Notes under the pieces: generated by a model
Databases searched by the model: none
Told to the model about the DNA's origin: nothing
What the model saw: only the letters and a program-made list of their open reading frames with translations
Part shown: one piece after another, positions 3,201 through 16,100 of the stretch
Position numbering within the stretch: position 1 is the first letter of the stretch
Layout: the number at the start of each line of letters is the position of its first letter
Source of the DNA: an uncultured Pedosphaera sp.
GTDB taxonomy: Bacteria; Verrucomicrobiota; Verrucomicrobiia; Limisphaerales; Pedosphaeraceae
Length of the DNA stretch: 32,389 bases
Assembly: GCA_903930565.1 (NCBI GenBank)
Contig: CAIYZC010000273.1
Span: 1 to 32,389 of the forward strand
Direction of reading: 5' to 3'
Program-made: the position numbers and the translations under genes

Positions 3201-6200
3201 TCAGGGGGCTTTGCCCGGTGCCGGGCTGGGGTTGCCCCCGCCGCCGGGCAGCAGCTTCTTGAGCGTGCCAATGGGATGCAGGAGGTCCATGAGCACCTTG
3301 GGGACATAAAGCGGTTCGGCCTGCGGATCGGACAAGGTGCCGCGCACTTTGTACTCGAACACCTTGGTGATGGGGCTCAGCAACAAACTCACCACGGGGC
3401 CGATGACCGGCGTGCCCTTGAGGATGGCCGCCTCGACCACCGCCTCGGTCCGCCCATCGAAATCCACCGTGCCGCGGTAGTTCATCCGGACGCCGCGCGC
3501 CCGGATTTCCAAATTGCCGGACCGCACCACACTGTTCGTGATGGTGAATTGCGCCGCGGCCGAAGTGGCCCGGCTTTCGCCCAATTGGAGCCCGGGCGAA
3601 ATGGTGTCCAGCAGCTTGGAGTAAGTCCCGAAGAGGGGGATTTCCCAAATGAAGCCATCCCGCAATTCCATGCTGCCCTGGCCGAACCAACTGTTCCAAT
3701 CGTCACTGTTGGCCGCGGTGATCGTCAGCGCGCCGTCGAGGCGGCCGGCCAGTTGGTTGGAGGGGCTCAGGAAAGCCGCCGCGATCAAGGGGTGCAAATC
3801 GACATTGCTGATGGTCCCCCCGAACTTGAAGTCCGTGCCGAGCTTGGCGCTGAAATCAAACGCCGCCGACCCCGTCAGCCGGCCGCCGTAAAACTCGGTT
3901 CGCGTTCCCGTCATCACCAGCCGGTCCGCTTTCCAGTGGGCGTCGGTCTCGATCTCGTTCAGGTCGAAGCGCGTCCAATGAAACGGCCCGCCCCGGATGT
4001 GGAAATTCAGGTCGGCGGGCACGCCGTCGCTCAGCGGAATGATGCCGCTGACGCGCACCTCCGGGGGGCGCGCGAACTGGTACGGCGCCATCGTCGCGGT
4101 GACCACGGGGCCGATGATGTGGAGCAACGGCACGGGATCGACGTTGCTGACGCAATTGGTCAGGAAGAGCCGCCGGGCCGGGAAATCCACCAGCATCAAG
4201 GGAACCTGCGCATGGCGGCCCTGCCGTTCCACATGCAGGTCGGTCACTTCCAGCAATTGATGGTCGTAGCGCAAATCGGCCTGGACGTTGTCGGCCGATT
4301 CGCGGCGGATGAGCACGTTCGTGGCGGCCAGGTGGGCGGTGGCGGTCAGGTTCGAGAGCGCCAGCCCGCGGCCCCGCAGTTCACCCTCCACAATGGGTGG
4401 CTGGCGGCAGACGATATTGTCCAGGACCACTTGCACCCCGCGCTCCACCAGCGGGCGGGCGGCGGCGGGGTTGAGGCTGCTGCGCAGGCGCAGCGCGTAT
4501 TCCCAAGTGCGCTGGTCCAGCGTGCCCGCGAGATGGAGGCCGCCCTCCGGCCGCGCCAAGTCCAATTCCCCCACGGTCCAGACAGAATTGGTCAGGCCAA
4601 TGCGGGTGTGCAGGGAGCGCACGGCCACTTTGCGGTAGGCGGTCGGGCCGGCGGAAACCTCGGCCGCGAGCCGCAGACTGGACCAGACCGACCCGGCCCA
4701 GTCGGGGGCGGCGTCGGTCCAAGCGGGCAGCACCACCTGCCCGGCGACCGCCAGACGCGGCGGTTTGGTCCACTGCAATTCAGCCAACTGGCGGCGGGCG
4801 GCGGCGGGCAGCAGCGGGGCCATTTGATGCGCGTCGCAATCCGTGGTGGCGTTGAAGTTCAACTCGCGGGTGGCCACATCGAGATCGCCCGCCAACGAGA
4901 GGTTTCCCCCGAAGAGTTGGGACGTCAGATTGGTGATGGTCAACCGGGGTGCGCGCCAACCGCCGCCGAGCGCGAGTTCGTTCGCCCGCCAATCCTCCTG
5001 GCGCACATCCTTCAAGCGGCAGTTCCAATCCAGGGCGTAGGGGGCCAGCGGCGCCCACCCGCCCCAAGCGGGGTCCGGCGGCGACGCGGGATCCGTGGCC
5101 GCCGTGGCCATGCGGGCAGTGAGGGCCAGGGTCCGCGCCGTGCCCCAGCGGGTTTGGACCCCATTGAGCGCGAATTCGCCCCCGCCTTCCAAGGGGATCG
5201 CGTTGGTGAACGAATGCGCCCAAGCCACATTCGCCGTCAGGCTATCCGCCCCGGCCCACGGGCTGGCAAATCGGTCCGCTCGCGCCACGAGCCGGCAAAG
5301 CACCAAGCCGGCGTCGCCCGGCTGGTTGGTGGCTTGCAAGTCCAGGCGCAGATTGCGGGCGCCGCCCCAAGGCGTGCGCACCGTTACCGCGCGCACCGTG
5401 GCGGTGCCGCGCCGCGGGGCGTTGGTGACGGCCAGCGGGAAGAAAAGGGCGTTGAGGGTGCCCTGGCTCAGTTCCCCCCAAGGGGTGTCCGCGGTGTCGG
5501 CCTGGAGGCTCAGTTCCATCCCGGTTTCGCCGGGCGCGGCTCCGGGGGCGTGGTGGACGGGCAGGGTGGCGGACAAGGCGGCGTTGGTCAACCGGCCCCA
5601 CGGTGTGCGGGCCTCCCGGGCCCGGGCGGTGAGTTCCACGGCGAAGGATTGCGGGTCCCGGCCGTCGCCCCGCACGGTTAGTTCGATCTCCGGCGGGTGG
5701 GCGAACTGCAGCCGCTGCAAGGTGCCGGCGAATTCGTTCAACGAAGGCTCCAACCGGCCCGGTCGCTGGCCGGCGGGCGCGCGGAAGACGGGCCAATCCC
5801 GCAAGGCCGAGGCGTTGGTGAGGGAGCCGGCCAGGTGGATGCGCGCGCCGGCGAACTCGGCGGTGAAGTGGTCCAGTTCCCATTGGTCGGGGGCGGGAAA
5901 CCGCAGTTCGGTTTGGATGTTGGTGATCGCCAACTCGCCCGCGGCCCCGCGCGCGGAGCCGACATGCCAGACGGCGCCGGCGGCCCGCAGGCGCAGCGCC
6001 TCCACGACCAGGTTGCCGCGGAGCAGCGCGCCCGCGTTCACTCCCAAAACCACTTCATGGGCGGAAAACCGGGGGCTGTCCGGGGGCGCATCCGCGCGGC
6101 CGAAATGAACATTCTCCGCCACGATGCCGCGGCCGAAGCGCCAGCGCATGCGGTCAAAGGACAGTTCAATGCCCTGGGCGTGGAGCTTTTCCAAGAGCTT

Positions 6201-6374
6201 CGTCTTGGCGAACCCCGGCAGGCCGACGTCGCTCAAATAGGCCCCCACGGCGAGGATGCCGCAGACCACCAGAATGCCGGTGACGCACGTGGCGCGCACG
6301 CACCGCCGGCTGAATCGCCGCCAGCGGCCGTGCGCGGGGGGCGCCGGGGTGGACGCTGGAGGGGTTGGGTTCAC
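3201..6374 (-). CDS. AsmA-like inner-membrane-anchored giant with TPWG repeats
   Basis: This 1057-residue protein is read from a GTG at 6374 that overlaps the stop of the DUF4340 gene (GTGA), implying translational coupling. The frame extends 82 codons further upstream, but that part lies inside the DUF4340 gene. A basic N-terminus (RRFSRRCVR) is followed by a transmembrane segment at ~30-48. The rest is a very long beta-rich periplasmic part with an AsmA-like C-terminal region (GSMELRDGFIWEIPLFG…, ~880-1020) and a low-complexity tail. AsmA/TamB-type proteins form long hydrophobic grooves thought to carry lipids between membranes. Between residues ~257 and 411 there is a repeat with TPWG, TPWG, TPWG, SPWA and TRWG at 40, 37, 37 and 37 residue spacing. 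It is the last gene of the HtrA/ABC/GldG run. Family assignment is good; lipid transport is inference. Confidence 0.82.
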   Translation of the reverse strand: MNPTPPASTPAPPAHGRWRRFSRRCVRATCVTGILVVCGILAVGAYLSDVGLPGFAKTKLLEKLHAQGIELSFDRMRWRFGRGIVAENVHFGRADAPPDSPRFSAHEVVLGVNAGALLRGNLVVEALRLRAAGAVWHVGSARGAAGELAITNIQTELRFPAPDQWELDHFTAEFAGARIHLAGSLTNASALRDWPVFRAPAGQRPGRLEPSLNEFAGTLQRLQFAHPPEIELTVRGDGRDPQSFAVELTARAREARTPWGRLTNAALSATLPVHHAPGAAPGETGMELSLQADTADTPWGELSQGTLNALFFPLAVTNAPRRGTATVRAVTVRTPWGGARNLRLDLQATNQPGDAGLVLCRLVARADRFASPWAGADSLTANVAWAHSFTNAIPLEGGGEFALNGVQTRWGTARTLALTARMATAATDPASPPDPAWGGWAPLAPYALDWNCRLKDVRQEDWRANELALGGGWRAPRLTITNLTSQLFGGNLSLAGDLDVATRELNFNATTDCDAHQMAPLLPAAARRQLAELQWTKPPRLAVAGQVVLPAWTDAAPDWAGSVWSSLRLAAEVSAGPTAYRKVAVRSLHTRIGLTNSVWTVGELDLARPEGGLHLAGTLDQRTWEYALRLRSSLNPAAARPLVERGVQVVLDNIVCRQPPIVEGELRGRGLALSNLTATAHLAATNVLIRRESADNVQADLRYDHQLLEVTDLHVERQGRHAQVPLMLVDFPARRLFLTNCVSNVDPVPLLHIIGPVVTATMAPYQFARPPEVRVSGIIPLSDGVPADLNFHIRGGPFHWTRFDLNEIETDAHWKADRLVMTGTRTEFYGGRLTGSAAFDFSAKLGTDFKFGGTISNVDLHPLIAAAFLSPSNQLAGRLDGALTITAANSDDWNSWFGQGSMELRDGFIWEIPLFGTYSKLLDTISPGLQLGESRATSAAAQFTITNSVVRSGNLEIRARGVRMNYRGTVDFDGRTEAVVEAAILKGTPVIGPVVSLLLSPITKVFEYKVRGTLSDPQAEPLYVPKVLMDLLHPIGTLKKLLPGGGGNPSPAPGKAP

Positions 6375-8224
6375 GGGGTCAGCGGTTCTTCCAATTTCAG
6401 AAACGAGATCAATCGTTGGTAGACCTTGGTCGGCAGTTCCAGGATCCATTCCCGGCCCTCCAACCGCACTGCGGCGTAACGCAGTTTGTCCGGTGACCAA
6501 CCGCCGAGGTCCAACTCCAAATTGTCCGACCGGCCCGCGCCGCGGACCTCGACGGTAATGCGGGGCGGTTGCTCCGCGAAATGGTAGCGCGCCCGGAGGT
6601 TGTCGCCGGAGTTGATCCAATCTTCGGCGTCCAATTCTCCGAGATCGCCCAAGGCCGCTTCGATCATGGGATCATTCGGATCGAGAGTGCCGGGGGATCC
6701 CGGGGCCAAGGCGTATTTGTATTCGCCCTCGCGCAGGACTTTGACCGTTTGCCGGCCTTGGCGGACGGTCAGGGAAACCACATTGCTCTCCGCAAAGCGC
6801 CACACGCGGCGGTCGCGCAATTGCAAGGCGTTGACCGGCAATTTGTTGAAGTCGGCCAAGCGCGCCGCATAAACCGAACTCTCATCCGTGCGGCGCACAT
6901 ACACCTTGTCCTGGTCGTCCGTGCCGCCGCCGAAGTCCAATTCCACCAGGGTGGTGTTCGTGGCCCCCGCCGGGGCGGCGCGCTGGAGCAAATACTGCCG
7001 GGCGGGCGGGGCGAGCCCCCATTTCGCGAGTTCGGCCGGCAGGACGTTTTCCTTCACGGAGAACTGGTTGTTCACCGGCACGCACTCCAGATTGGCAAGA
7101 TTCTCCAACAGTTTCCGCATTTGCCGGGCGTCCGCCGGGAACGCCGCGGGGGCGGTCACCCGCCATTCATCGTTGGTCTGTCGTTGCAAGGTCAGCTTCT
7201 CGCCGCCCCGCGTCGTGATGGTCAGCACTTCCGCCGCGAAGGCGCGCCGGCCCACCAAGTGCCGGTCGCGAAAATCGGTGTAGGGTCCGCGCAGAGGTTC
7301 CACAGGCGCGCGCGGCACCAGCATCACCGTTCGCTGTCCAGACCGCCGGGCGTAGATCACCGTCGGGTCGTTGGTGGGACTTTTCCCGAACTGCAATGCC
7401 GCCAGCACATTGGTGCCGCGGTTGAGTGACACCTCCAACTGCGCCGGTTGCAAACCCAGCGGCTCCAAGTCGGCGTTGGTGTCGTCGGTATAAAAAGCCG
7501 TGGCGTTGAGCGCCTGCAGGTTGTACCAGATTTGATCCATCGCGTTGTTGTCCACCCGCGCTTGGATGGGGAAGGCCATGCGCCAAGGTTCGCCCGCGGC
7601 GTCCCGCTGCAACTCGATCCGAGCGGCTTCAACTTTGCCGCCGCCGGTCAAAATCAGCCGGTCAAAGGCCTGGCCGCCCAGGTTCACGACCGTGTGGTCG
7701 CGCCACGGATCCGGGTCGCGCGGCAGGTATTGGAACAAGTCCTTGTCCACCGTGGTGATTCCGGCGCCACCCACTACCTGGAGATAAACCTCGTTGCCCG
7801 GCGCGGTCAGTTTGCCCAATTTGATGTGCTTCTCGTCGCGCCCCTGCAGGACCACGATGGTGGCACTGGGGGTGCGCAGTCCGTATTCCTCGTCCGCCTC
7901 CGGATGGTCCTTCAGTTCCTGCGGTGTGATCTGGGTGCGAAAGGTGAGTTTTTCCAGGGCGCGCAACAGGCTGGTGATGGCTACTTCCTGCGCGGGATAA
8001 GGCAGCGGCTGCGTGAGCCGCCAGACGCCATTGGTGAGTTCCACCCGCATCGCGGGTTTGCCCGTCCAAGTGACCTGCAGGCCGGTGACCGCGGCCGCGC
8101 TGATTCCGGGCAGCACCCGGCGGTCCACGGGTCCGCCGGCTGCGGGCCGGCGTTCAAAGACCAGGACGTAAATGGCCAGGCAAGCGGCGAGGGCGACCAA
8201 CAGCCAGGTGGTTTTGGGATTCAT
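6371..8224 (-). CDS. DUF4340 domain protein of a Gld-like ABC cluster
   Basis: This 617-residue protein has a short cytoplasmic start (MNPKTT), one N-terminal membrane helix at ~6-24 (TWLLVALAACLAIYVLVF) and a long extracytoplasmic part. Recurrent WxxTxP-type strands and 'YGLRTPSATIVV…KHIKLGKL…VYLQV' segments are characteristic of DUF4340 (residues ~90-200, with related material later). Family members regularly sit beside GldG-like ABC transporter components, as here. It starts 15 bases after the GldG-like stop, and its own stop overlaps the GTG of the AsmA-like gene. Its biochemical function is unknown. Context suggests it acts with the ABC permease at the inner membrane. Family recognition is from sequence style and neighbourhood, not a profile search. 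Confidence 0.8.
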   Translation of the reverse strand: MNPKTTWLLVALAACLAIYVLVFERRPAAGGPVDRRVLPGISAAAVTGLQVTWTGKPAMRVELTNGVWRLTQPLPYPAQEVAITSLLRALEKLTFRTQITPQELKDHPEADEEYGLRTPSATIVVLQGRDEKHIKLGKLTAPGNEVYLQVVGGAGITTVDKDLFQYLPRDPDPWRDHTVVNLGGQAFDRLILTGGGKVEAARIELQRDAAGEPWRMAFPIQARVDNNAMDQIWYNLQALNATAFYTDDTNADLEPLGLQPAQLEVSLNRGTNVLAALQFGKSPTNDPTVIYARRSGQRTVMLVPRAPVEPLRGPYTDFRDRHLVGRRAFAAEVLTITTRGGEKLTLQRQTNDEWRVTAPAAFPADARQMRKLLENLANLECVPVNNQFSVKENVLPAELAKWGLAPPARQYLLQRAAPAGATNTTLVELDFGGGTDDQDKVYVRRTDESSVYAARLADFNKLPVNALQLRDRRVWRFAESNVVSLTVRQGRQTVKVLREGEYKYALAPGSPGTLDPNDPMIEAALGDLGELDAEDWINSGDNLRARYHFAEQPPRITVEVRGAGRSDNLELDLGGWSPDKLRYAAVRLEGREWILELPTKVYQRLISFLKLEEPLTP

Positions 8225-8239: not shown

Positions 8240-9727
8240 TCAATGGCGGCGGCGCAGCCACACTATGCCGCCCAGCAGGAGGATGACGCCCGGAATCCCG
8301 GCCAGGAACAACCATTCCACGGAGGTCAGTTGACCTCGGGTCATGAGCAGTTTGTATTCGTTGACCGTCTGCGGTCCGACCCCCTGCAAAACCTGGGTTT
8401 GATCCAACAGCCAGTTCACGGCACAGCGGGCGAATTCGCGGTTGCCCGCCTCCTCAATGAACGCGTTGTCCAGAAACAATGATTCGCCCACCGCCACGAT
8501 CCGGGTGAAGCCACGGTCCGGCAGGTCGCCTTTCACGCCGGCCCGTTCGGCGGCGACCATGAGGGGGATGCGGACGCCGAACGGAACCGCATTCGTGCCC
8601 AAATGGGCCCGCTCGCTCGCAAAGGCCAATTCTTCCACCTTGGCCGCGTCCGGCCCCGGGTTCTTTTGCGCTTTCTTGAGGACTGGCCGGGGCTCCAACA
8701 TGTAGAGGCCCAGATTGGCGATCTGTCCGACGGTGGGGTGGTTGCTGAAATCCTTGATCGCCAAGTCCAAGCCCTGTGGTCCGACACTGTGCTCGTTGTC
8801 GATGATCAGATCATCGGTGATCCGGATGCCCCATTCCTGGAGCAAGGCCTCCAACCCGGTTTTCACGGCTCGGGTGTCGGGGTGGAACAACACCAACATC
8901 CGCCCGCCTTGGTTCAAATAATTGCGCAGCTTTTGGATCGCCTCGGCGGGGAAGGGCGTGAGCGGTCCCGCGATGATGACCAGATTCCAATCTTTCGGGC
9001 TCAGCACATTCGTGCCCAAGAGACTGTTGGTGCCGCAATGCACCCAGCTCTGTTGCAGCACCTCCTTGAACCGTTGGTAGCCCAGTTTGCCGGTGCCGTC
9101 GGAAGGGTGTTCGCCGTTCTCTTCCAAAAAGCAGGCGTTCAGGATCTTGGGATTAGTGACGGCCAGAATCATCGAGGAAAAGATCAAGTCGCCCTTGAAG
9201 GCTTGGAGCGTCCGTTCCCACTCCCGTTCGCCTTCCTTGTTGGCCACCAATCGGCCGCGGAAGTCGCCGAACACATTGCCCGGCACGATCTGGCGGCTGT
9301 GCCCCGCACAATCGAAAATGACGAAATCCTTGTCGTCGCCCGAGGGCAATTGGTAGGCCGCCTTGACGCGCAATGCCGCGGCGGGGTTGCGCACGTAATC
9401 CACCTTTTCATAGGTGACGCCGGAATTAAGCAAATGATACTCCTCCAAAAGCGCGCAAATGGAGCTGTACAAAGGTTCGTGATCCCGATTGTAATACACC
9501 GTCACCTTGATTTGGTTGGTCAAGGACCGCAGCAGGCCCGCGGATTGGGAGGACACCTGGATGCGCGCCTGGCCGCTCCAAAAAAAGCGCCGGGGATGCC
9601 GGCCCGCCACGAAATTAACCAGCAACAGCACCGCGGTGGCGGCCAAAATGCCCACGGCGACGTGGAACAGCACCCGGCCCTGTGGTGGGGCGGAGGCCGG
9701 CGGCATATCGTTCAAGGGGGTGGGCAT
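8240..9727 (-). CDS. GldG-like ABC transporter auxiliary protein
   Basis: This 495-residue protein has two membrane anchors. One N-terminal helix at ~20-43 (LFHVAVGILAATAVLLLVNFVAG) and one near the C-terminus at ~472-489 (WLFLAGIPGVILLLGGIVWL) bracket a large extracytoplasmic domain. The domain begins with 'QSAGLLRSLTNQIKVTVYYNRD' and contains 'GGRMLVLFHPD', features of the GldG/ABC-type auxiliary family (PF09822-like). In Bacteroidota, GldG works with GldA (ATPase) and GldF (permease) in gliding and secretion. In other phyla the equivalent cluster has no settled role. The start is one base after the permease stop (TAACATG), so the genes are co-transcribed and probably co-translated. No evidence of gliding machinery proper is present in the window. 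Confidence 0.83.
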   Translation of the reverse strand: MPTPLNDMPPASAPPQGRVLFHVAVGILAATAVLLLVNFVAGRHPRRFFWSGQARIQVSSQSAGLLRSLTNQIKVTVYYNRDHEPLYSSICALLEEYHLLNSGVTYEKVDYVRNPAAALRVKAAYQLPSGDDKDFVIFDCAGHSRQIVPGNVFGDFRGRLVANKEGEREWERTLQAFKGDLIFSSMILAVTNPKILNACFLEENGEHPSDGTGKLGYQRFKEVLQQSWVHCGTNSLLGTNVLSPKDWNLVIIAGPLTPFPAEAIQKLRNYLNQGGRMLVLFHPDTRAVKTGLEALLQEWGIRITDDLIIDNEHSVGPQGLDLAIKDFSNHPTVGQIANLGLYMLEPRPVLKKAQKNPGPDAAKVEELAFASERAHLGTNAVPFGVRIPLMVAAERAGVKGDLPDRGFTRIVAVGESLFLDNAFIEEAGNREFARCAVNWLLDQTQVLQGVGPQTVNEYKLLMTRGQLTSVEWLFLAGIPGVILLLGGIVWLRRRH

Positions 9728-9728
9728 G

Positions 9729-10481
9729 TTATTTCCAACGACGGCTCTCGACCACCCGCACCGTGAGGAACAGGAACCAAGCGGTCAAACTCAGGTAAAA
9801 GACCAAATGCCGCACGTCCACCAAGCCGCGGGCAAAGTCGTTCATGTGGTCCATCAGCGCCACCCGGGTGAGCAATTCCTCCTGCCATCCGCCGGCTACG
9901 GTTACGCGACCGGACAGCAAGCTTAGCAGGAACAAGGTGAACCCCAGGGTGAAACTCAGCATGGCGGCCATGATTTGCGTGTGGGCCAAGGCGGAGGCGA
10001 AGCAGCCCAACGCCATGAACAAACCGCCGAGCAGGGTGATGCCGAGGAAAGTGCTGGCCAGCAAGCCGGGATCCAAGGCGGTGGGAGTGTTGATGAAATG
10101 GCGGAGGATGAGGACGCACGCGAGGGAAGGCAGCCAGAGCAAAACATAGAACACCAGGGCGGCGGTATACTTGGCCAACACCACTTGCAGTTCGGTCACC
10201 GGGGTGGTCATCAACGTCTCGAACGTGCCGCTGGCCTTTTCCAAGGCGAACAAGCGCATGGTGATGACCGGGGTGGCCAATTGCAGAATGAGCCAAAAGT
10301 AAGGGGTCGAATAAAACAACTGGGTGATGGGCAGGGGGGTGGGTTCCGCCTGCAATTGCGCCACCAGCACCACCCAGCTCAGGCCTTGCAGGAACGCCGC
10401 CGCCGCGATCACGAGGAAGCCGGTGGCGGAAACGAAGAAGCTGCCCAGCTCCCGCCGCGTCAGGGTCACATATGCCTGCAT
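9729..10481 (-). CDS. ABC-2 type permease, GldF-like
   Basis: This 250-residue integral membrane protein has about six hydrophobic segments (for example TGFLVIAAAAFLQGLSWVVLVAQL, LFYSTPYFWLILQLATPVITMRLF and a final LTAWFLFLTV). It carries the ABC-2 permease signature 'MRLFALEKASGTFETLMTTPVTELQVVLAKY' between helices 2 and 3. The ATG at 10481 overlaps the TGA of the ATPase gene (TGATG), and a strong Shine-Dalgarno run (GGAGGAGG) lies just upstream inside the ATPase gene. This is one of the few clear ones in the window and supports coupled translation. It would form the transmembrane pore with the adjacent ATPase. The substrate is unknown; GldF homologues are the closest named relatives. Confidence 0.88.
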   Translation of the reverse strand: MQAYVTLTRRELGSFFVSATGFLVIAAAAFLQGLSWVVLVAQLQAEPTPLPITQLFYSTPYFWLILQLATPVITMRLFALEKASGTFETLMTTPVTELQVVLAKYTAALVFYVLLWLPSLACVLILRHFINTPTALDPGLLASTFLGITLLGGLFMALGCFASALAHTQIMAAMLSFTLGFTLFLLSLLSGRVTVAGGWQEELLTRVALMDHMNDFARGLVDVRHLVFYLSLTAWFLFLTVRVVESRRWK

Positions 10482-11440
10482 CAGGTTTCCTCCTCCTCGA
10501 CCCGGGTGAGTCGCACGTAAATGTCTTCCAGCGTGTGCCGTTGCCGGGTCAGTTCCCGCACCGGCCAGCCGCGTTGCAAGGCCAGGTTGAAAACGCGCGA
10601 GCGCAAATCCACCCCGTCCTGGGGCGTCAAGGCGCACCGGAAAAAGTCCCCCGCCACCGGAGAAATGTCCGCGTGGCGGATTTCGGCGATGGTGTCAAAG
10701 GCGGCCTGCAGCTCGGCTTGGGAGGCGGCGATTTCCGCCACGACCTGCCCGCGGCCACCCATTAGCGCCTGCAAATTGTCCGGCGTGTCTGCGGCCGCGA
10801 TGCGGCCCTCGTGCAAAATCACCATCCGGTGGCAGGTCATTTCCAACTCGCTCAGGATGTGGCTGGACACCAGCACCGTGTGGCGCCCGGCCAGGCTCTT
10901 GATCAACTGGCGCACGGACCGGATTTGCCGGGGATCCAAGCCGATCGTCGGTTCGTCCAAGATGAGCAATTCGGGTTCGTGAACCAAGGCGTCCGCCAAG
11001 CCCACCCGCTGGCGGTAGCCTTTGGACAATTGGCCGATGACCGACTTTTGCGCTTCGACCAAGCCGCATTGCTGCAGGACCATGTCCACCCGCTGCCGGG
11101 TCTGGCCCCAACTCAGGCCTTTGAGTCGCGCCCGGAATTTCAAATACTCCCGCACGCGCATCTCGGGGTGCAGGGGGTTGTTTTCCGGCATGTAGCCGAT
11201 TCGCCGCCGAACCTCCATGCTTTGGGCGAATACATCAAAGCCCGCCACGCGCACCGTTCCACCACTGGCGGGCAGGTACCCGGAGAGGATCCGCAGGGTC
11301 GTGCTCTTGCCCGCGCCGTTGCTGCCCACCAAGCCCACGATCTCCCCGCGCCGGACCGCAAAGGAAATGCCCGATACCGCCGTGTGTCCGGCGTATCGCT
11401 TGGTCAGGTTGGAGACTTCAATCATTAGTCCGTCGCTCAT
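10481..11440 (-). CDS. ABC transporter ATP-binding protein, GldA/CcmA-type
   Basis: This 319-residue ATPase contains a Walker A motif GSNGAGKST (residues ~39-47), a Q-loop region (GYMPENNPLH), a variant signature LSKGYRQR (~138-145), Walker B LLILDEP (~158-164) and a switch His (SSHILSE). The ~90-residue C-terminal extension (from about VVAEIAASQ) is typical of ABC-2 exporter ATPases. The start at 11440 (MSDGLMIEVSNLTKRY) is preferred over an upstream ATG at 11497, which would add a non-conserved leader. MIEVSN at 11425 is also possible. It follows htrA by 58 bases and overlaps the permease start by one base. It energises the GldF/GldG-like complex encoded downstream. Confidence 0.92.
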   Translation of the reverse strand: MSDGLMIEVSNLTKRYAGHTAVSGISFAVRRGEIVGLVGSNGAGKSTTLRILSGYLPASGGTVRVAGFDVFAQSMEVRRRIGYMPENNPLHPEMRVREYLKFRARLKGLSWGQTRQRVDMVLQQCGLVEAQKSVIGQLSKGYRQRVGLADALVHEPELLILDEPTIGLDPRQIRSVRQLIKSLAGRHTVLVSSHILSELEMTCHRMVILHEGRIAAADTPDNLQALMGGRGQVVAEIAASQAELQAAFDTIAEIRHADISPVAGDFFRCALTPQDGVDLRSRVFNLALQRGWPVRELTRQRHTLEDIYVRLTRVEEEET

Positions 11441-11498
11441 GGCTCGCGCAAGGGGCAGTTTAGCCACAAGACCGGCGGGGGGGCGAATAAAAAACATG

Positions 11499-12923
11499 TC
11501 ATCGCAAGGGAAGTTCCACGGCCCGTTCCTGAAAGGTCCGAAAGGCTCCGCGGCGCTGCTGGGCCACGAAGTCCACGCGGATCTTTTCCCCTTTTTGGCG
11601 CGCGTATAGAAGCTTGGCCGCCGCGGTCAAATCGGCCGGGGCCTGGCCGTCCAAGGCGGTGATCAAATAGCCCGGTCGGAACACGCTTGCGCCGGGGCCC
11701 TCCCGGTCCACTTCCGCGACCACAAAGCCCTCCGTGCCGGTCAATCCCAACGACCGGGCCAGTTCCGGGGTGATCGCCTCCAGGCGGAGCCCCGTGCGTT
11801 CCTCGATCATGTCGGCGTTGAAAACCGAGCTTTCGGGCACGGGCCGGACGGCCAACTCCAGCCGCTTTCCTTGGCGCTCCACCGTGAGCCGCACGTCGCC
11901 CTTGCGTTGCCGGATGATGGCTTCCGTGAAGTCGATGAAATTGCGGGGTTCCTTGCCGTTGACTTGGAGCACTTGATCCCCGGTGCGCAACCCCGCCCGT
12001 TCCGCCGGGCTTTTCTGCTGGACGACCCCGACGGTGAGGGGCGGGGGGCCGATGCGCACGCGGGCGCCGAACCACAGGCCCTGGCCCGCGGTTTCCGGCG
12101 TGAAGATGCCCGCCAACGCCTCGCTGACGAGTTTGATCGGGATGGCGAAGCCAATCCCTTGCGCTTGGGACAACATGGCCACGTTCAGCCCGATCAATTC
12201 CCCCCGCAGGTTGACCAACGGGCCGCCGCTGTTGCCGGGGTTGATGGAGGCGTCGGTTTGCAGCCAGTTGGGCCAGTCCAATTGTTCCGCATCCTTGGGG
12301 GTGACGCGGTTTTTGGAACTCAAGATTCCCCGGCTCACCGAGCCGCCCAGCCCAAAGGGGTTGCCCAACGCCAGCACCGTTTCGCCCAGCAACAGGTCGT
12401 CGTCTTTGGCGAAGCGCACCGCGGTGAACCGTTCCCCCGCCGGGGCCTTCAACTGGATCAGCGCCACATCGCTCCGGGCGTTGCCCGCGATCAACTTGGC
12501 CTCATAGGGCTCCTCCCGCGTGCCGACCTTCACCCAAATCCGCGTTGCCCGGCGCACCACGTGGTCGTTGGTCAAAATATAGCCCGCTTCATCAATGATC
12601 ACGCCGGAGCCCAAGCTGACTTGCGCATTCCGCGCTCCGCGGCCATAAGCATCAAAATACTCCTGCAGGAATTTTTCGAACGGGTCCCGCACGCTCACCA
12701 CGGTTTCGGTGGCGATGTTCACGACGCAGGGCATCACTCGCTCGACCGCGGCGACGGTGGCATCCCGCCGCACATCCGTTTCCCCACCTCCCGCGCCAGC
12801 CGCCGCGCGTGCGGGCGGCATCAGGGCGCAGCCCAACAGCAGAGCTGCCATCAGCCCCTGCCGTGGCGCCCTTCCCCGTCCCCGGCCATGCTCCCGCCGC
12901 CGCCATATTTTCCGTACGTTCAT
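11499..12923 (-). CDS. HtrA/Deg-type periplasmic serine protease with two PDZ domains
   Basis: This 474-residue protein from the ATG at 12923 has an N-terminal export signal (Arg-rich start, LMAALLLGCALMPPARA). The trypsin-like domain carries the complete triad His121 (TNDHVV), Asp152 (ARSDVAL) and Ser232 (NPGNSGGPL). Two PDZ regions follow: ~270-360 with 'AERAGLRTGDQVLQVNG', and ~385-470 with 'GASVFRPGYLITALDG'. HtrA/DegP-family enzymes degrade or refold misfolded envelope proteins. The Cys in LLLGC could suggest a lipoprotein, but the following Ala-rich ARA site fits signal peptidase I better. The gene is first in the minus-strand run leading into the ABC/GldG/AsmA genes and is divergent from the DUF2851 gene. 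The upstream TTGAAC-17-GGTCAA, 7 bases before the ATG, is a weak promoter candidate. Confidence 0.92.
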   Translation of the reverse strand: MNVRKIWRRREHGRGRGRAPRQGLMAALLLGCALMPPARAAAGAGGGETDVRRDATVAAVERVMPCVVNIATETVVSVRDPFEKFLQEYFDAYGRGARNAQVSLGSGVIIDEAGYILTNDHVVRRATRIWVKVGTREEPYEAKLIAGNARSDVALIQLKAPAGERFTAVRFAKDDDLLLGETVLALGNPFGLGGSVSRGILSSKNRVTPKDAEQLDWPNWLQTDASINPGNSGGPLVNLRGELIGLNVAMLSQAQGIGFAIPIKLVSEALAGIFTPETAGQGLWFGARVRIGPPPLTVGVVQQKSPAERAGLRTGDQVLQVNGKEPRNFIDFTEAIIRQRKGDVRLTVERQGKRLELAVRPVPESSVFNADMIEERTGLRLEAITPELARSLGLTGTEGFVVAEVDREGPGASVFRPGYLITALDGQAPADLTAAAKLLYARQKGEKIRVDFVAQQRRGAFRTFQERAVELPLR

Positions 12924-13017
12924 GCTGCACTTGACCCTGTCACCGCGTCGTCTGTTCAAAATTTGGCCGGCCGCCGCGGGCTTGACTTTCCCGTCTCGCA
13001 ATCCGAGCTTGGGCGGC

Positions 13018-14490
13018 ATGCTGGTTCCCGCTGAAAACTTCTACGCCGCTTGGCGCGCGCGCCGTCATCCGAGCCCGGATTTGCGTGAAACGGGCGGTGA
13101 TGCGCCGCCGGAAAAGCTGCTCCAAACGATTTGGCAGCACCAGCGGCTATTGCGGGACCAACTCATCACCTTGGACGGGCGGCCGGTGCGGATTCTTCAC
13201 CCGGGTTTTAAGAATCAGGAGGCCGGGCCGGATTTTCGGGACGCAATGATCCGGCTGGGCTCCGAGCCCCCGCTCACCGGGGATATCGAGATCGATTTGC
13301 AGCCCGGCGGCTGGAAAGCCCATGGCCATGACCGCAACCCCAATTACCACCGCGTCATTCTGCACGTGATCTGGTCGGGAACCCCGGGCGCCGAAGAACG
13401 GCTCCCGGTGCTGGCCTTGCAGGGGCGCCTCGACGCTCCCTTGGGAGAACTCGACGAAGCCCTCGGTCGCGAACCGGCTGCCGGCCTGCCGGTGTCTTTG
13501 CGCGGCCAATGCTCCGCCCCCCTCGCTGGCCTGCCGCCCGGGCGCCTGGCCGAACTCCTTCTGGCCGCGGCGGACGTCCGCTGGCGGGTCAAAGCCGGCC
13601 ATTACGCCGCCCGCGCCCGCCAGGTCGGGTGGGAACAAACGCTGTGGGAGGGGCTGTTCCGGGGCTTGGGTTACAAGCAGAACATTTGGCCTTTTCATCG
13701 TTTGGCCGAGTTGCGCCCCCTCTGGCATCGTCCGCCCTTGGATCCGTTTGCTTTGCAAACCCGCCTGCTGGGGTTGAGCGGCCTGCTTCCCGACCAACTG
13801 AGCCGCGCCCAGTTGGCCGCCGACCAGCATCTGCGCCAAGTATGGGATCAATGGTGGCGCGAGCGCGACGCGTTCGCCGATGCCATCCTGCCCCGCAGTC
13901 TCTGGCGGTTGCACGGCATCCGCCCCGCCAATCATCCCCAGCGCCGGCTCGCCCTCGCCGCGCATTGGGTGGCGGCGGGCGACCTCCCCGCGCGGCTCCA
14001 AAAATGGTTCGCCCAACCCATCGCCGACGCCGCCTTGGCTGATTCCCTCCTGCAATCCCTGGCCCCGGTGGTGGAAGATTCCTTTTGGACCCGCCACTGC
14101 ACCCTCCGTTCCGCCCCGTTGGCCCGTCCCCAACCGCTGCTGGGCGCCACCCGCGTCACCGATTTGGCCGTAAATGTCATCCTGCCTTGGTTGTGGGTGC
14201 GGGCGGTCGAAGGCCGAAACGCCGAACTCCAACGCGTTGCCGAGCACCGGTTCCGCCATTGGCCGGCCGCCGAGGACAACAGCGTTTTGCGCCTGGCCCG
14301 TCGGCGCCTGTTGGGGGCCGCGGGCACCTGGCTCCCCGCGGGCGCCGCCGCGCAGCAGGGCTTGCTCCAAATCACCCGTGATTTTTGCGACCATACCAAC
14401 GCATTGTGCGAGCAATGCCCCTTCCCCGAGCTCGTCCAAGAATGGTTCCGCCGCCCCGGGGAGCGGGAAAAGATTCCTGCCGAGGGGTAA
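13018..14490 (+). CDS. DUF2851 family protein
   Basis: This 490-residue protein is recognised as DUF2851 by its N-terminal core, 'GFKNQEAGPDFRDAMIRLG' followed by 'TGDIEIDLQPGGWKAHGHDRN' and 'YHRVILHVIW' (residues ~60-120). A helical middle and a C-terminal cysteine pair in 'CEQCPFPELVQEW' fit the family ending. The function of the family is unknown. The N-terminal part has been likened to nuclease-type folds, but I cannot show catalytic residues with certainty. The frame is open upstream; ATG 13018 is chosen because the conserved region begins soon after, and because TTGACT at 12982 with a position-matched but weak -10 (GAGCTT) precedes it by seven bases. It is divergent from htrA, with 94 bases between starts. 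Confidence 0.82.
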   Translation: MLVPAENFYAAWRARRHPSPDLRETGGDAPPEKLLQTIWQHQRLLRDQLITLDGRPVRILHPGFKNQEAGPDFRDAMIRLGSEPPLTGDIEIDLQPGGWKAHGHDRNPNYHRVILHVIWSGTPGAEERLPVLALQGRLDAPLGELDEALGREPAAGLPVSLRGQCSAPLAGLPPGRLAELLLAAADVRWRVKAGHYAARARQVGWEQTLWEGLFRGLGYKQNIWPFHRLAELRPLWHRPPLDPFALQTRLLGLSGLLPDQLSRAQLAADQHLRQVWDQWWRERDAFADAILPRSLWRLHGIRPANHPQRRLALAAHWVAAGDLPARLQKWFAQPIADAALADSLLQSLAPVVEDSFWTRHCTLRSAPLARPQPLLGATRVTDLAVNVILPWLWVRAVEGRNAELQRVAEHRFRHWPAAEDNSVLRLARRRLLGAAGTWLPAGAAAQQGLLQITRDFCDHTNALCEQCPFPELVQEWFRRPGEREKIPAEG

Positions 14491-14558: not shown

Positions 14559-15992
14559 TCAGAGCAGGGAATCGGCCAGCCGGGCGATGTTTTGCAAGGT
14601 GCGGACGACGGGCGAGCGGCGGCGCCATTCCTCCAGCGTGAGGAGCCGGCTGTGGGCGAAATATTCGTCTTGGATTTGCCGGATGGCGGCCGCCGGGCCG
14701 GGGCCGTAGAGGAGAAGGCTTACCTCGGCGTTCAAAGCAAAGGAGCGAATATCGATATTGCTGGAACCGATGACGACGAAATCGTCGTCGATGGCCAGGT
14801 GCTTGGCGTGCAGAAAGCGGGGTTGATAGAGGTGCAAACGCACGCCCGCGGACAGCAGGTCATCGTAGTAGGAGCGTTGGGCGAACTGGGTGAGCCGTTG
14901 GTTGGCGTGCTCGGAAAGCACCAACGCCACCTCGACCCCGCGCAGCCGGGCGGCGTGGAGGGCCTCCAAAAAGGGCTCGTCGGGCACAAAGTACGGGGTT
15001 GTCATCACAATCCGGTGGCGCGCGGCATAGAGCAGGGTGATAAAGAGCTGCTGACCGTTCATGCGCAGGTAGCCGGGGCCGCTGGGTACCAGTTGGGCCA
15101 GGGTGCTCCCCGGGGGCGGATCGTGGGGGGCGAACAGCCCGGGATGATCGAGTGGGCCGCCGCGCTCGAAGTAACGGTCGGCGAGGAACACGGCTTGCAG
15201 CTGGGCGACAATGGGGCCGGTGAGGCGGAGGGTGAGGTCCTCATTCGGATAGCCCGGCACAAAGCCGGGGGCGACCAGGTTTTGGGATCCGGTGTAGCCG
15301 ATGCGGCCGTCAATAATGGCGAGTTTGCGATGGTTGCGCAGGTCAAAGCGGGCGGCGTTCCGGCGGAAGAGGCCGACGGGCAGGAGGGGCGTGACTTCGA
15401 TGCCTTGCGCGGTCAGGCGCGGAGCGAGTCGCGCCAAGGCGGCTTTGGAGCCGACGGCATCGAGGAGCACCCGGCACGTGACGCCGCGGGCGGCGGCCCG
15501 GGCGAGGGCCTCCGCCACCCGTCGGCCGGGGGCGTCGTCACCGTAAATGTAATACAGTAAGTGGATATGCTGCCGGGCGGCGTCGAGATCGGTGATCAGG
15601 CGGTCGATGGTCCCGTCGTAATCGGTGAGGAATTCGACGTGGTTGCCGGGGACGGCTTTGAAATCGCCAAGGCGCTCGGCAAAGGCCGCCACGCGGAGGG
15701 CTTCGACGCCTAAGTCCGGGTGGGGGGCGGTCGCGGTGCCGGTCGCGGGCGCGGGCATTTGGGCTTGCGAGGCGCGGATCATGCGGGAGGCGCGCCGTTG
15801 CTGGGCGATTCGGCGGCGGGGCAAATAAATGCGCCCGAAGAGCGTGTAGAGCACCAAGCCGGGGGCGGGGAGCAAAAAAATGAGGAGGAGCCAGGTGCGG
15901 GAGGCCGCGGCATTCCGGCGCTGGGGCACGTAGAACAGCATCGCGAGGCGGACGGCCCACTCGCTGATCAGGTAAACGAGGCTCCAATGCAC
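14559..15992 (-). CDS. cls: Cardiolipin synthase-like phospholipase D
   Basis: This 477-residue membrane protein has two hydrophobic segments near the N-terminus (LVYLISEWAVRLAMLFYV and WLLLIFLLPAPGLVLYTLFG), as in bacterial cardiolipin synthases. It contains two HKD phospholipase D motifs: H221-x-K223…D228 (HRKLAIIDG) and H395-x-K397…D402 (HAKHLAIDD), each followed by the usual GSxN (GSQN, GSSN). The family joins phosphatidyl groups to make cardiolipin at the inner membrane. The frame extends to an ATG at 16091, but the GTG at 15992 (VHWSLVYLISEW) fits the family start and lies six bases after TATCCC with TTGCCC 17 bases upstream. That implies a leaderless mRNA. Divergent from serS. The symbol is by family; clsA/clsC-type substrates cannot be told apart here. 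Confidence 0.86.
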   Translation of the reverse strand: MHWSLVYLISEWAVRLAMLFYVPQRRNAAASRTWLLLIFLLPAPGLVLYTLFGRIYLPRRRIAQQRRASRMIRASQAQMPAPATGTATAPHPDLGVEALRVAAFAERLGDFKAVPGNHVEFLTDYDGTIDRLITDLDAARQHIHLLYYIYGDDAPGRRVAEALARAAARGVTCRVLLDAVGSKAALARLAPRLTAQGIEVTPLLPVGLFRRNAARFDLRNHRKLAIIDGRIGYTGSQNLVAPGFVPGYPNEDLTLRLTGPIVAQLQAVFLADRYFERGGPLDHPGLFAPHDPPPGSTLAQLVPSGPGYLRMNGQQLFITLLYAARHRIVMTTPYFVPDEPFLEALHAARLRGVEVALVLSEHANQRLTQFAQRSYYDDLLSAGVRLHLYQPRFLHAKHLAIDDDFVVIGSSNIDIRSFALNAEVSLLLYGPGPAAAIRQIQDEYFAHSRLLTLEEWRRRSPVVRTLQNIARLADSLL

Positions 15993-16027
15993 GCGGCAGG
16001 GATACCATTGCCCGGGTCCCGGGGCAA
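15993..16027 (-). promoter_or_regulatory. Putative leaderless promoter of the cardiolipin synthase gene
   Basis: On the minus strand, TTGCCC (16027-16022), a 17-base spacer, and TATCCC (16004-15999) are followed by six bases (TGCCGC) and then the GTG start codon at 15992. The geometry matches the serS, lipoprotein and sugar-dehydrogenase promoters and supports the GTG start. Confidence 0.45.
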
Positions 16028-16064
16028 TGGCGAAGGCGGCCCGGGTCGGCGGGGTGAATCCGGC

Positions 16065-16100
16065 TTGCGCGGGGCGGGGCGCTTCCGCCATATTCGCGCC
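16065..16100 (+). promoter_or_regulatory. Putative leaderless promoter of serS
   Basis: TTGCGC at 16065-16070, an 18-base spacer, and CATATT at 16089-16094, then CGCGCC and the ATG at 16101. The predicted transcription start coincides with the start codon, and no Shine-Dalgarno sequence is visible. It is back-to-back with the cls promoter, with 37 bases between the two -35 boxes. Confidence 0.5.

Follow-up and report, generated by a model that had tools for sequence, protein, structure and literature searches.

How a bridge-like lipid-transfer protein gets its length is a question raised in the literature (in the accessible text of PMC7613979), and it is posed in countable form by one gene in the stretch of DNA analysed here, 32,389 nucleotides (the window) from an uncultured Pedosphaera sp. 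of the phylum Verrucomicrobiota (contig CAIYZC010000273.1, one of the 870 contigs of its genome). The gene, on the minus strand at 3201..6374 (coding 3204-6374), encodes an AsmA-like protein of 1057 residues that is probably a lipid bridge, elongated by an array of five repeated units that are each predicted to form a β-hairpin; the number of these units differs between close relatives. The residue numbering used here, and in a preliminary description made from the sequence alone, implies a GTG start codon at 6374. This codon overlaps the stop codon of the upstream DUF4340 gene as GTGA, and is a plausible start given that overlap. A homologue was matched in 56 of the 58 genomes searched, the window's own included.

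The repeat is visible as a recurring short motif. The preliminary description listed TPWG, TPWG, TPWG, SPWA and TRWG at residues 257, 297, 334, 371 and 408 (spacings of 40, 37, 37 and 37), and exactly this was found, with the five motifs running from position 5606 of the window down to 5142. When the protein was shuffled 20,000 times, motifs of the form [TS][PR]W[GA] occurred 0.10 times on average and never more than three times, compared with the five observed. The self-alignment that the same description had proposed placed the repeat above chance at lags 40 and 74, with ungapped scores of 63 and 57, where 300 shuffles of residues 201-500 gave at most 47; lag 37 alone scored 36, where the 99th percentile for that lag in such shuffles was 27.

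A profile of the unit was started with 13 homologues and refined by iteration over 56 sequences from 55 loci. The genome with a split match (G011) was left out, so that 55 of the 56 matching genomes are represented, and two loci from the whole-protein contig search were dropped as duplicates (L031 repeats L002 and L032 repeats L003). Truncated or split sequences (L022, L029 and both fragments of L057) were included in the training of the profile and left out of the full-length set, which comprises 52 of the 55 loci. The profile matches all five units in the query. It was then applied to 80 further, unseen homologues, chosen from the better-scoring matches listed and not at random, where it gave 214 matches of at least 8 bits, every one of them starting within residues 200-520; 83 of the 139 neighbouring pairs were spaced by 37 residues and 15 by 36. 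No match was obtained on 80 shuffled and 80 reversed proteins. Across 167 unit copies, W occupies its position in 93% and T or S theirs in 95%, and along both strands of the unit hydrophobic positions alternate with polar ones, apart from a single break per strand (Kyte-Doolittle means of +1.3 to +3.3 at the hydrophobic positions and about -1 to -3 between them). Because both strands alternate in this way, one face of the resulting sheet would be hydrophobic. Save for the turn motif and this strand pattern, the unit sequences diverge freely.

It is well supported by sequence comparison that the units are homologous copies that arose by duplication. In locus L023 a 60-residue segment is repeated at lag 57 with 50% identity in protein and 61% in DNA, and L033 matches itself at lag 74 across 135 residues (36% identity). 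The regular spacing might instead be convergent, if an amphipathic hairpin meander drifted to a period of about 37 residues without any duplication, and many of the within-protein unit matches listed are indeed only about 20-30% identical. But the T-P-W-G turn recurs although amphipathicity does not need it, the Escherichia coli proteins YhdP, TamB and YdbH carry no significant unit when scanned with the unit profile, and both the copies in L023 and the difference of one unit between the query and its congener (see below) favour duplication; convergence is accordingly regarded as hardly credible.

The form that the unit takes was examined in an AlphaFold2 model built from 42 sequences, with a mean predicted local distance difference test score (pLDDT) of 84.8 and a predicted template-modelling score of 0.58. 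Within residues 231-430, 15 of the 20 ten-residue blocks have a pLDDT of 88-96, three of 72-83 and two of 64-67. The repeating unit that the preliminary description expected such a model to contain is present at the positions of the motifs, as one predicted β-hairpin per ~37 residues. All five lie on the minus strand: unit 1 (residues 240-271, window 5562..5657, TPWG at 257) has strands 240-257 and 260-271; unit 2 (residues 286-313, 5436..5519, TPWG at 297) has strands 286-297 and 300-313; unit 3 (residues 320-351, 5322..5417, TPWG at 334) has strands 320-334 and 337-351; unit 4 (residues 354-388, 5211..5315, SPWA at 371) is modelled as 354-366, 368-370, 374-376 and 378-388, that is, with its strands 354-370 and 374-388 each broken for one or two residues; and unit 5 (residues 394-424, 5103..5195, TRWG at 408) has strands 394-408 and 412-424. 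In each modelled unit strand A ends at or beside the T, P-W forms the turn and strand B starts at or beside the G, so that the stretches of the form xxxxxL/AxAx, already described as strand-like, correspond to the second strand of each hairpin. A possible degenerate sixth hairpin (residues 446-474, window 4953..5039, minus strand, strands 446-458 and 463-474, EDW at the turn) is separated from the array by a modelled helix at 435-443. The sixth unit that had been suspected at EDWRANELALGGG stands in part: the sequence sits at a hairpin turn in the model, but it gives no unit-profile score in the query. The stretch corresponding to it in relatives, just before the fixed W, does score in some of them, for example L050 (2e-5), L005 (2e-4) and L014 (2e-4), and only weakly in others, such as L010 (0.04) and L018 (0.4).

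The number of units varies among homologues, as the preliminary description had proposed to count; in the host's order there are usually four or five, with extremes of 0 and about ten. Array length was measured in 132 homologues between fixed flanks corresponding to D237 and W473 of the query. It is mostly 192-202 or 230-238 residues, with other values near 84, 152-159, 263-270 and 306-309. The extremes are 44-46 and 443, the latter being that of L033, whose array contains about ten unit-profile matches and is the longest in the sample. In three of the 132 order members (L038, L041 and L140) the array is reduced to one unit's length or less, with segments of 44-46, 84 and 84 residues; L038 is also a locus in which DUF4340 was not found within ~1 kb upstream. 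On trees built without the array, from a short tree search and with unit number taken as array length rounded to units, unit number changed at least 17 times on a 52-row tree and at least 26 times on a quick 132-row tree, both being rough counts. Among 62 independent pairs, length differences of at least 15 residues were found in the array 16 times, in the C-terminal part three times and in the N-terminal part not at all, and ten of the 16 array differences are multiples of 37 to within 6 residues (one-sided binomial p 0.024). Rayleigh tests of array length, whose p values were far smaller, were set aside, since they count related proteins as independent. Whole hairpins have been gained and lost, with length changing mostly in unit steps between flanks that stay nearly constant.

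A step of this kind can be followed in the query itself, which has five units where its congener L002 and the six other fetched family members have four. In pairwise scoring, the four units of L002 find their partners in the query's units 1, 3, 4 and 5, in that order (scores of 94, 102, 90 and 98), leaving unit 2 of the query unpaired, with a resemblance to L002 units 1 and 2 (63 and 52). By these alignments unit 2 is most simply a gain by tandem duplication in the query's lineage. An out-of-phase duplication, joining strand B of unit 1 to strand A of unit 2, was also tried: against L002 the A half of the query's unit 2 scores best with unit 2 (52; unit 1 40) and the B half with unit 1 (52; unit 2 29), the A half favours unit 1 against L003 (40 versus 36), and it gives a tie against L008 (45 versus 43). 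These scores are undecided, a plain copy of unit 1 fits equally well, and the candidate was not adopted.

Outside the order the protein is found without the array. In a phylum-wide sample of 288 genomes, 202 (counting the window's own) gave a family match, and the 29 best-scoring loci outside the order were taken as an outgroup, of which 28 have both ends (L185, incomplete, was dropped). The segment between the flanks is 31-35 residues long in 27 of the 28 and 9 residues long in L183; no significant unit score was found in any of the 28, in which the rest of the protein is kept. A profile of the array matches 27 of the 30 nearest genomes, the own one included; across 194 genomes of the phylum sample it gave, beyond the window's own, four matches only (E 0.0023-0.0030, 55-71 profile positions), which are taken as chance. 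As far as sampled, the array thus appears from sequence to be an insertion restricted to one order of the Verrucomicrobiota, in a protein that varies little elsewhere. Homologues that keep the fold and lack the spacing, which the preliminary description had named as evidence against its proposal, exist in part: array-bearing homologues keep the spacing of 36-37 residues, but five of the 80 unseen homologues within the order have no scoring unit, 13 have a single one, and all 28 of the outgroup lack the array.

The remainder of the protein can be compared with the AsmA-like proteins of E. coli. Residues 25-43 (window 6246..6302, minus strand) have a 19-residue Kyte-Doolittle mean of 2.21, the maximum of the protein, the next best after residue 60 being 1.59, and a modelled helix at 18-49 covers this region; these features point to one N-terminal anchor in the inner membrane and, beyond it, a large body that would lie in the periplasm. 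With YhdP, TamB and YdbH, which have been implicated in phospholipid transport (PMC8912898, in the part available), the query shares the single N-terminal anchor and the long β-rich body; its weak sequence similarity, at both ends, is above all to YhdP. By profile comparison residues 49-134 match residues 27-115 of E. coli YhdP (E 1.8e-5, probability 78), and at the C-terminus the Pfam YhdP family is matched with an E-value of 5.6e-4 (18.4 bits, for a cut-off of 46). Of 42 aligned members, counting the query, 33 have this Pfam match at an E-value of 0.001 or below, and relatives reach 1.5e-13 for YhdP and 2.2e-11 for AsmA. The query differs from the E. coli proteins in its variable-copy hairpin array and in its gene cluster with an ATP-binding cassette (ABC) transporter set. 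The same genome may encode another AsmA-like protein on a different contig (G000:C810:2790-3176, L191), where there is a weak AsmA match that is below the cut-off (E 2.0e-4).

A second comparison is with the repeating β-groove (RBG) proteins, the bridge-like VPS13, ATG2 and Tweek/BLTP1/LPD-3, whose length is set by the count of internally duplicated β modules, each a five-stranded meander with a helix and loop (PMC7613979, in the part available). The C-terminal part of the query (residues 475-1012, window 3339..4952, minus strand) may contain modules of this kind. In the model this half of the protein is made of meanders of five to six strands, each closed by a helix, as in strands 446-511 followed by helix 524-531 and strands 661-743 followed by helices 748-762. 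Several homologues match themselves at lags of ~108-121 in the C-terminal half (window 3339-4952), with a recurring signature 'D....PLL....R..L....W..PP...G'; self-alignment of the query against shuffles gave no significant match at these lags. The array itself is of another make: in the model the 37-residue unit is a two-strand hairpin without a helix or loop, and so falls outside the five-stranded definition. The earlier proposal of repeating β-groove modules built by internal duplication therefore holds for a repeating β module, for duplication and for a sequence that fits a sheet with one hydrophobic face, and not for the RBG module as the unit. The array may rather be one RBG-like meander enlarged by inserted hairpins. 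Most RBG duplications are described as older than the last eukaryotic common ancestor, those in VPS13C/D including more recent ones (PMC7613979, in the part available); in the query's family the quantum is the hairpin, and its copy number shifts between species of one order.

In structure searches with the model, the best PDB match in Foldseek is LPD-3 (9cap; E 4.1e-7, probability 0.98, TM 0.11), followed by ApoB100 and LptD. In VIA-align the rows above Z 9 are pieces of ApoB100 and outer-membrane barrels, with LPD-3 absent among the 50 matches listed, and these matches are read as shared meander geometry only. Compared with the sequences of solved structures, the whole protein has no match and the array profile has one chance-level row (E 1.1).

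Taken together, the findings on the repeat, the model, the relatives and the gene cluster make it probable (at roughly 0.6) that the tandem hairpin array lengthens the hydrophobic lipid groove of an AsmA-like bridge, which would probably work with an ABC transporter encoded upstream. The array would be an insertion that follows the N-terminal part of the inner-membrane-anchored protein and precedes its C-terminal half, each hairpin adding two antiparallel strands to one sheet. With T-P/R-W-G at the turn, the tryptophans should align along one rim, two strands apart, and with one strand face hydrophobic the array would most likely extend a groove along which lipid moves between membranes; from what is known of the family, these would be the inner and the outer membrane. 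Strands in a sheet are spaced by ~4.8 Å. Gain or loss of a hairpin (two strands) would then change the length of the groove in steps of ~1 nm, and five hairpins would add about 5 nm if the strands run across the axis. The hairpins are predicted by the model; the shape of the groove, its lipid cargo, the direction of movement, the coupling to ATP and length as a selected property are what we infer.

The array could alternatively be a passive spacer or rigid stalk between the anchor and the C-terminal domains that carries no lipid. Its length varies between flanks that are nearly constant, and its units diverge outside the turn and strand pattern, both of which speak for a spacer. Yet the two strands keep their alternating hydrophobic positions (with the one break in each), which is more than a solvent-exposed spacer sheet needs, and the array sits between a YhdP-similar N-terminus and a C-terminal half whose strand order is groove-like in the model, so that the spacer is thought unlikely.

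Several observations nevertheless weigh against the groove-lengthening array. Some concern the repeat and its steps: five of the 80 unseen homologues have no unit of at least 8 bits and 13 have one only; lengths of 240-257, plus single values of 212, 221, 298 and 327, match no whole unit number; six of the 16 independent array differences are not near a multiple of 37, and support for whole-unit steps is modest; and the change counts come from trees built by a short search, the 52-row one having 14 weak inner branches out of 49 and four flagged long-branch joins. Others concern the family and the fold. The query does not reach the curated thresholds of the AsmA-type families in Pfam and NCBIfam (for PRK10833, 33.7 versus 412 bits), the global fold matches are poor, as the TM value for LPD-3 indicates, and VIA-align is led by ApoB100 and β-barrels; because the global matches are poor, the groove is argued from strand pattern and family, not from coordinates. 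In a model of the ~ten-unit array of L033, pLDDT is below 50 at fragment residues 187-201, 221-241 and 257-352; the ends of the array form strands, the middle is of low confidence, and the model neither proves nor refutes extension of the sheet by extra units. Finally, gene neighbourhood amounts to linkage, not coupling.

That neighbourhood consists of five tightly packed genes on the minus strand, of which the AsmA-like gene is the last. It is preceded by an ABC transporter ATPase (10481..11497; PF00005, E 6.8e-33), an ABC-2 type permease (9729..10481; PF13346 and PF12730), the ATG of which at 10481 overlaps the ATPase stop codon, a GldG-like protein (ABC_transp_aux / IFT52_GIFT, 8240..9727; PF09822, E 2.2e-13) and, directly upstream, the DUF4340 protein (6371..8224; PF14238, E 6.7e-53). 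The close packing on a single strand, together with overlaps of start and stop codons at two of the junctions, suggests an operon. The four upstream genes are kept in the same order in all 20 genomes fetched from the host's order, and 51 of the 55 loci (the window's own among them) have DUF4340 in their upstream flank. Of the other four, L022 and L029 end at a contig edge and L038 and L047 had ~1 kb upstream. Outside the order, seven of ten upstream reading frames carry DUF4340, most of the ten having been picked for a DUF4340-like look. The ABC_transp_aux protein and the ABC-2 permease resemble GldF/GldG-type ABC systems, Gld being the name that we take to belong to this kind of pair; the query's cluster differs from them in ending with an AsmA-like protein. 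A transposon study of Verrucomicrobium spinosum reports an essential DUF4340 domain (PMC12283558, in the part available), in a protein that may or may not belong to the same cluster.

The gene partners also bear on whether the protein is instead a TamB-like helper of outer-membrane protein assembly, its sheet chaperoning nascent β-strands and not lipids. TamB has been described as part of the outer-membrane protein assembly module (PMC11014939, in the part available), and many of the structural matches listed for the query are β-barrels, with Omp85 proteins among them. There is, against this, no similarity to E. coli TamB beyond the anchor, which is all that hhalign aligns (E 0.28), and neighbourhood scans found an ABC transporter set and not an Omp85 protein as gene partners, with no TamA/Omp85 partner seen in a scan confined to the proteins encoded nearby. 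A TamB-like role is considered very unlikely.

A transporter-fed groove has a precedent in the Lpt bridge (LptB2FG-C-A-D), in which a hydrophobic groove that runs unbroken across the periplasm is fed by an ABC transporter (PMC12977461, and PMC12738788 for the ABC part, in the text available). The proposed system would work alike, with one long AsmA-like protein in place of several bridge proteins and with GldG-like and DUF4340 partners; the two are likened by working scheme, not by homology. The upstream ABC transporter would, on this reading, load or drive the groove protein. A fuller version, in which the ABC transporter with its GldG-like and DUF4340 partners loads the groove of an ATP-driven lipid bridge and hairpin number is tuned as a molecular ruler of periplasm width, is put forward tentatively and is, on the whole, doubtful.

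Were the groove-lengthening array to be borne out, extant relatives would be seen to differ in the length of a bridge-type protein mostly by countable steps, with both ends nearly unchanged; its length could therefore be set against the width of the periplasm in different species, or changed hairpin by hairpin. To our knowledge, no energy source of the ABC-transporter kind is known for AsmA-like phospholipid transporters. An ATP-driven bridge would supply one, and would show the evolution of bridge length in action, with the conserved gene cluster supplying candidate partners. Further factors of the E. coli AsmA-like proteins are described as unclear in the accessible part of PMC12977461. Among the literature matches listed there is no description of the array or of a link between AsmA and DUF4340, most subscription papers being outside its coverage and not every search having been so aimed; searches on AsmA in Verrucomicrobiota and Planctomycetes, on AsmA with GldG or GldF and on the hairpin repeat unit found nothing on point.

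Further features were seen around the cluster. The DUF4340 protein (6371-8224) holds three DUF4340 stretches, an internal repeat, and one further DUF4340 match is present in the window's genome on contig C568 (L195). A phospholipase D-like protein with two PLDc_2 stretches, presumably cardiolipin-synthase-like by its architecture, is encoded on the same strand at 14559-16091; it was not found in the 20 upstream stretches fetched, which are 6.0-8.6 kb long and may end short of its position. Directly before the ATPase gene ends a trypsin/PDZ protease gene (HtrA-like, 11499-13019, same strand), and 11 of the 20 genomes have a similar protein within the upstream stretch that was fetched.

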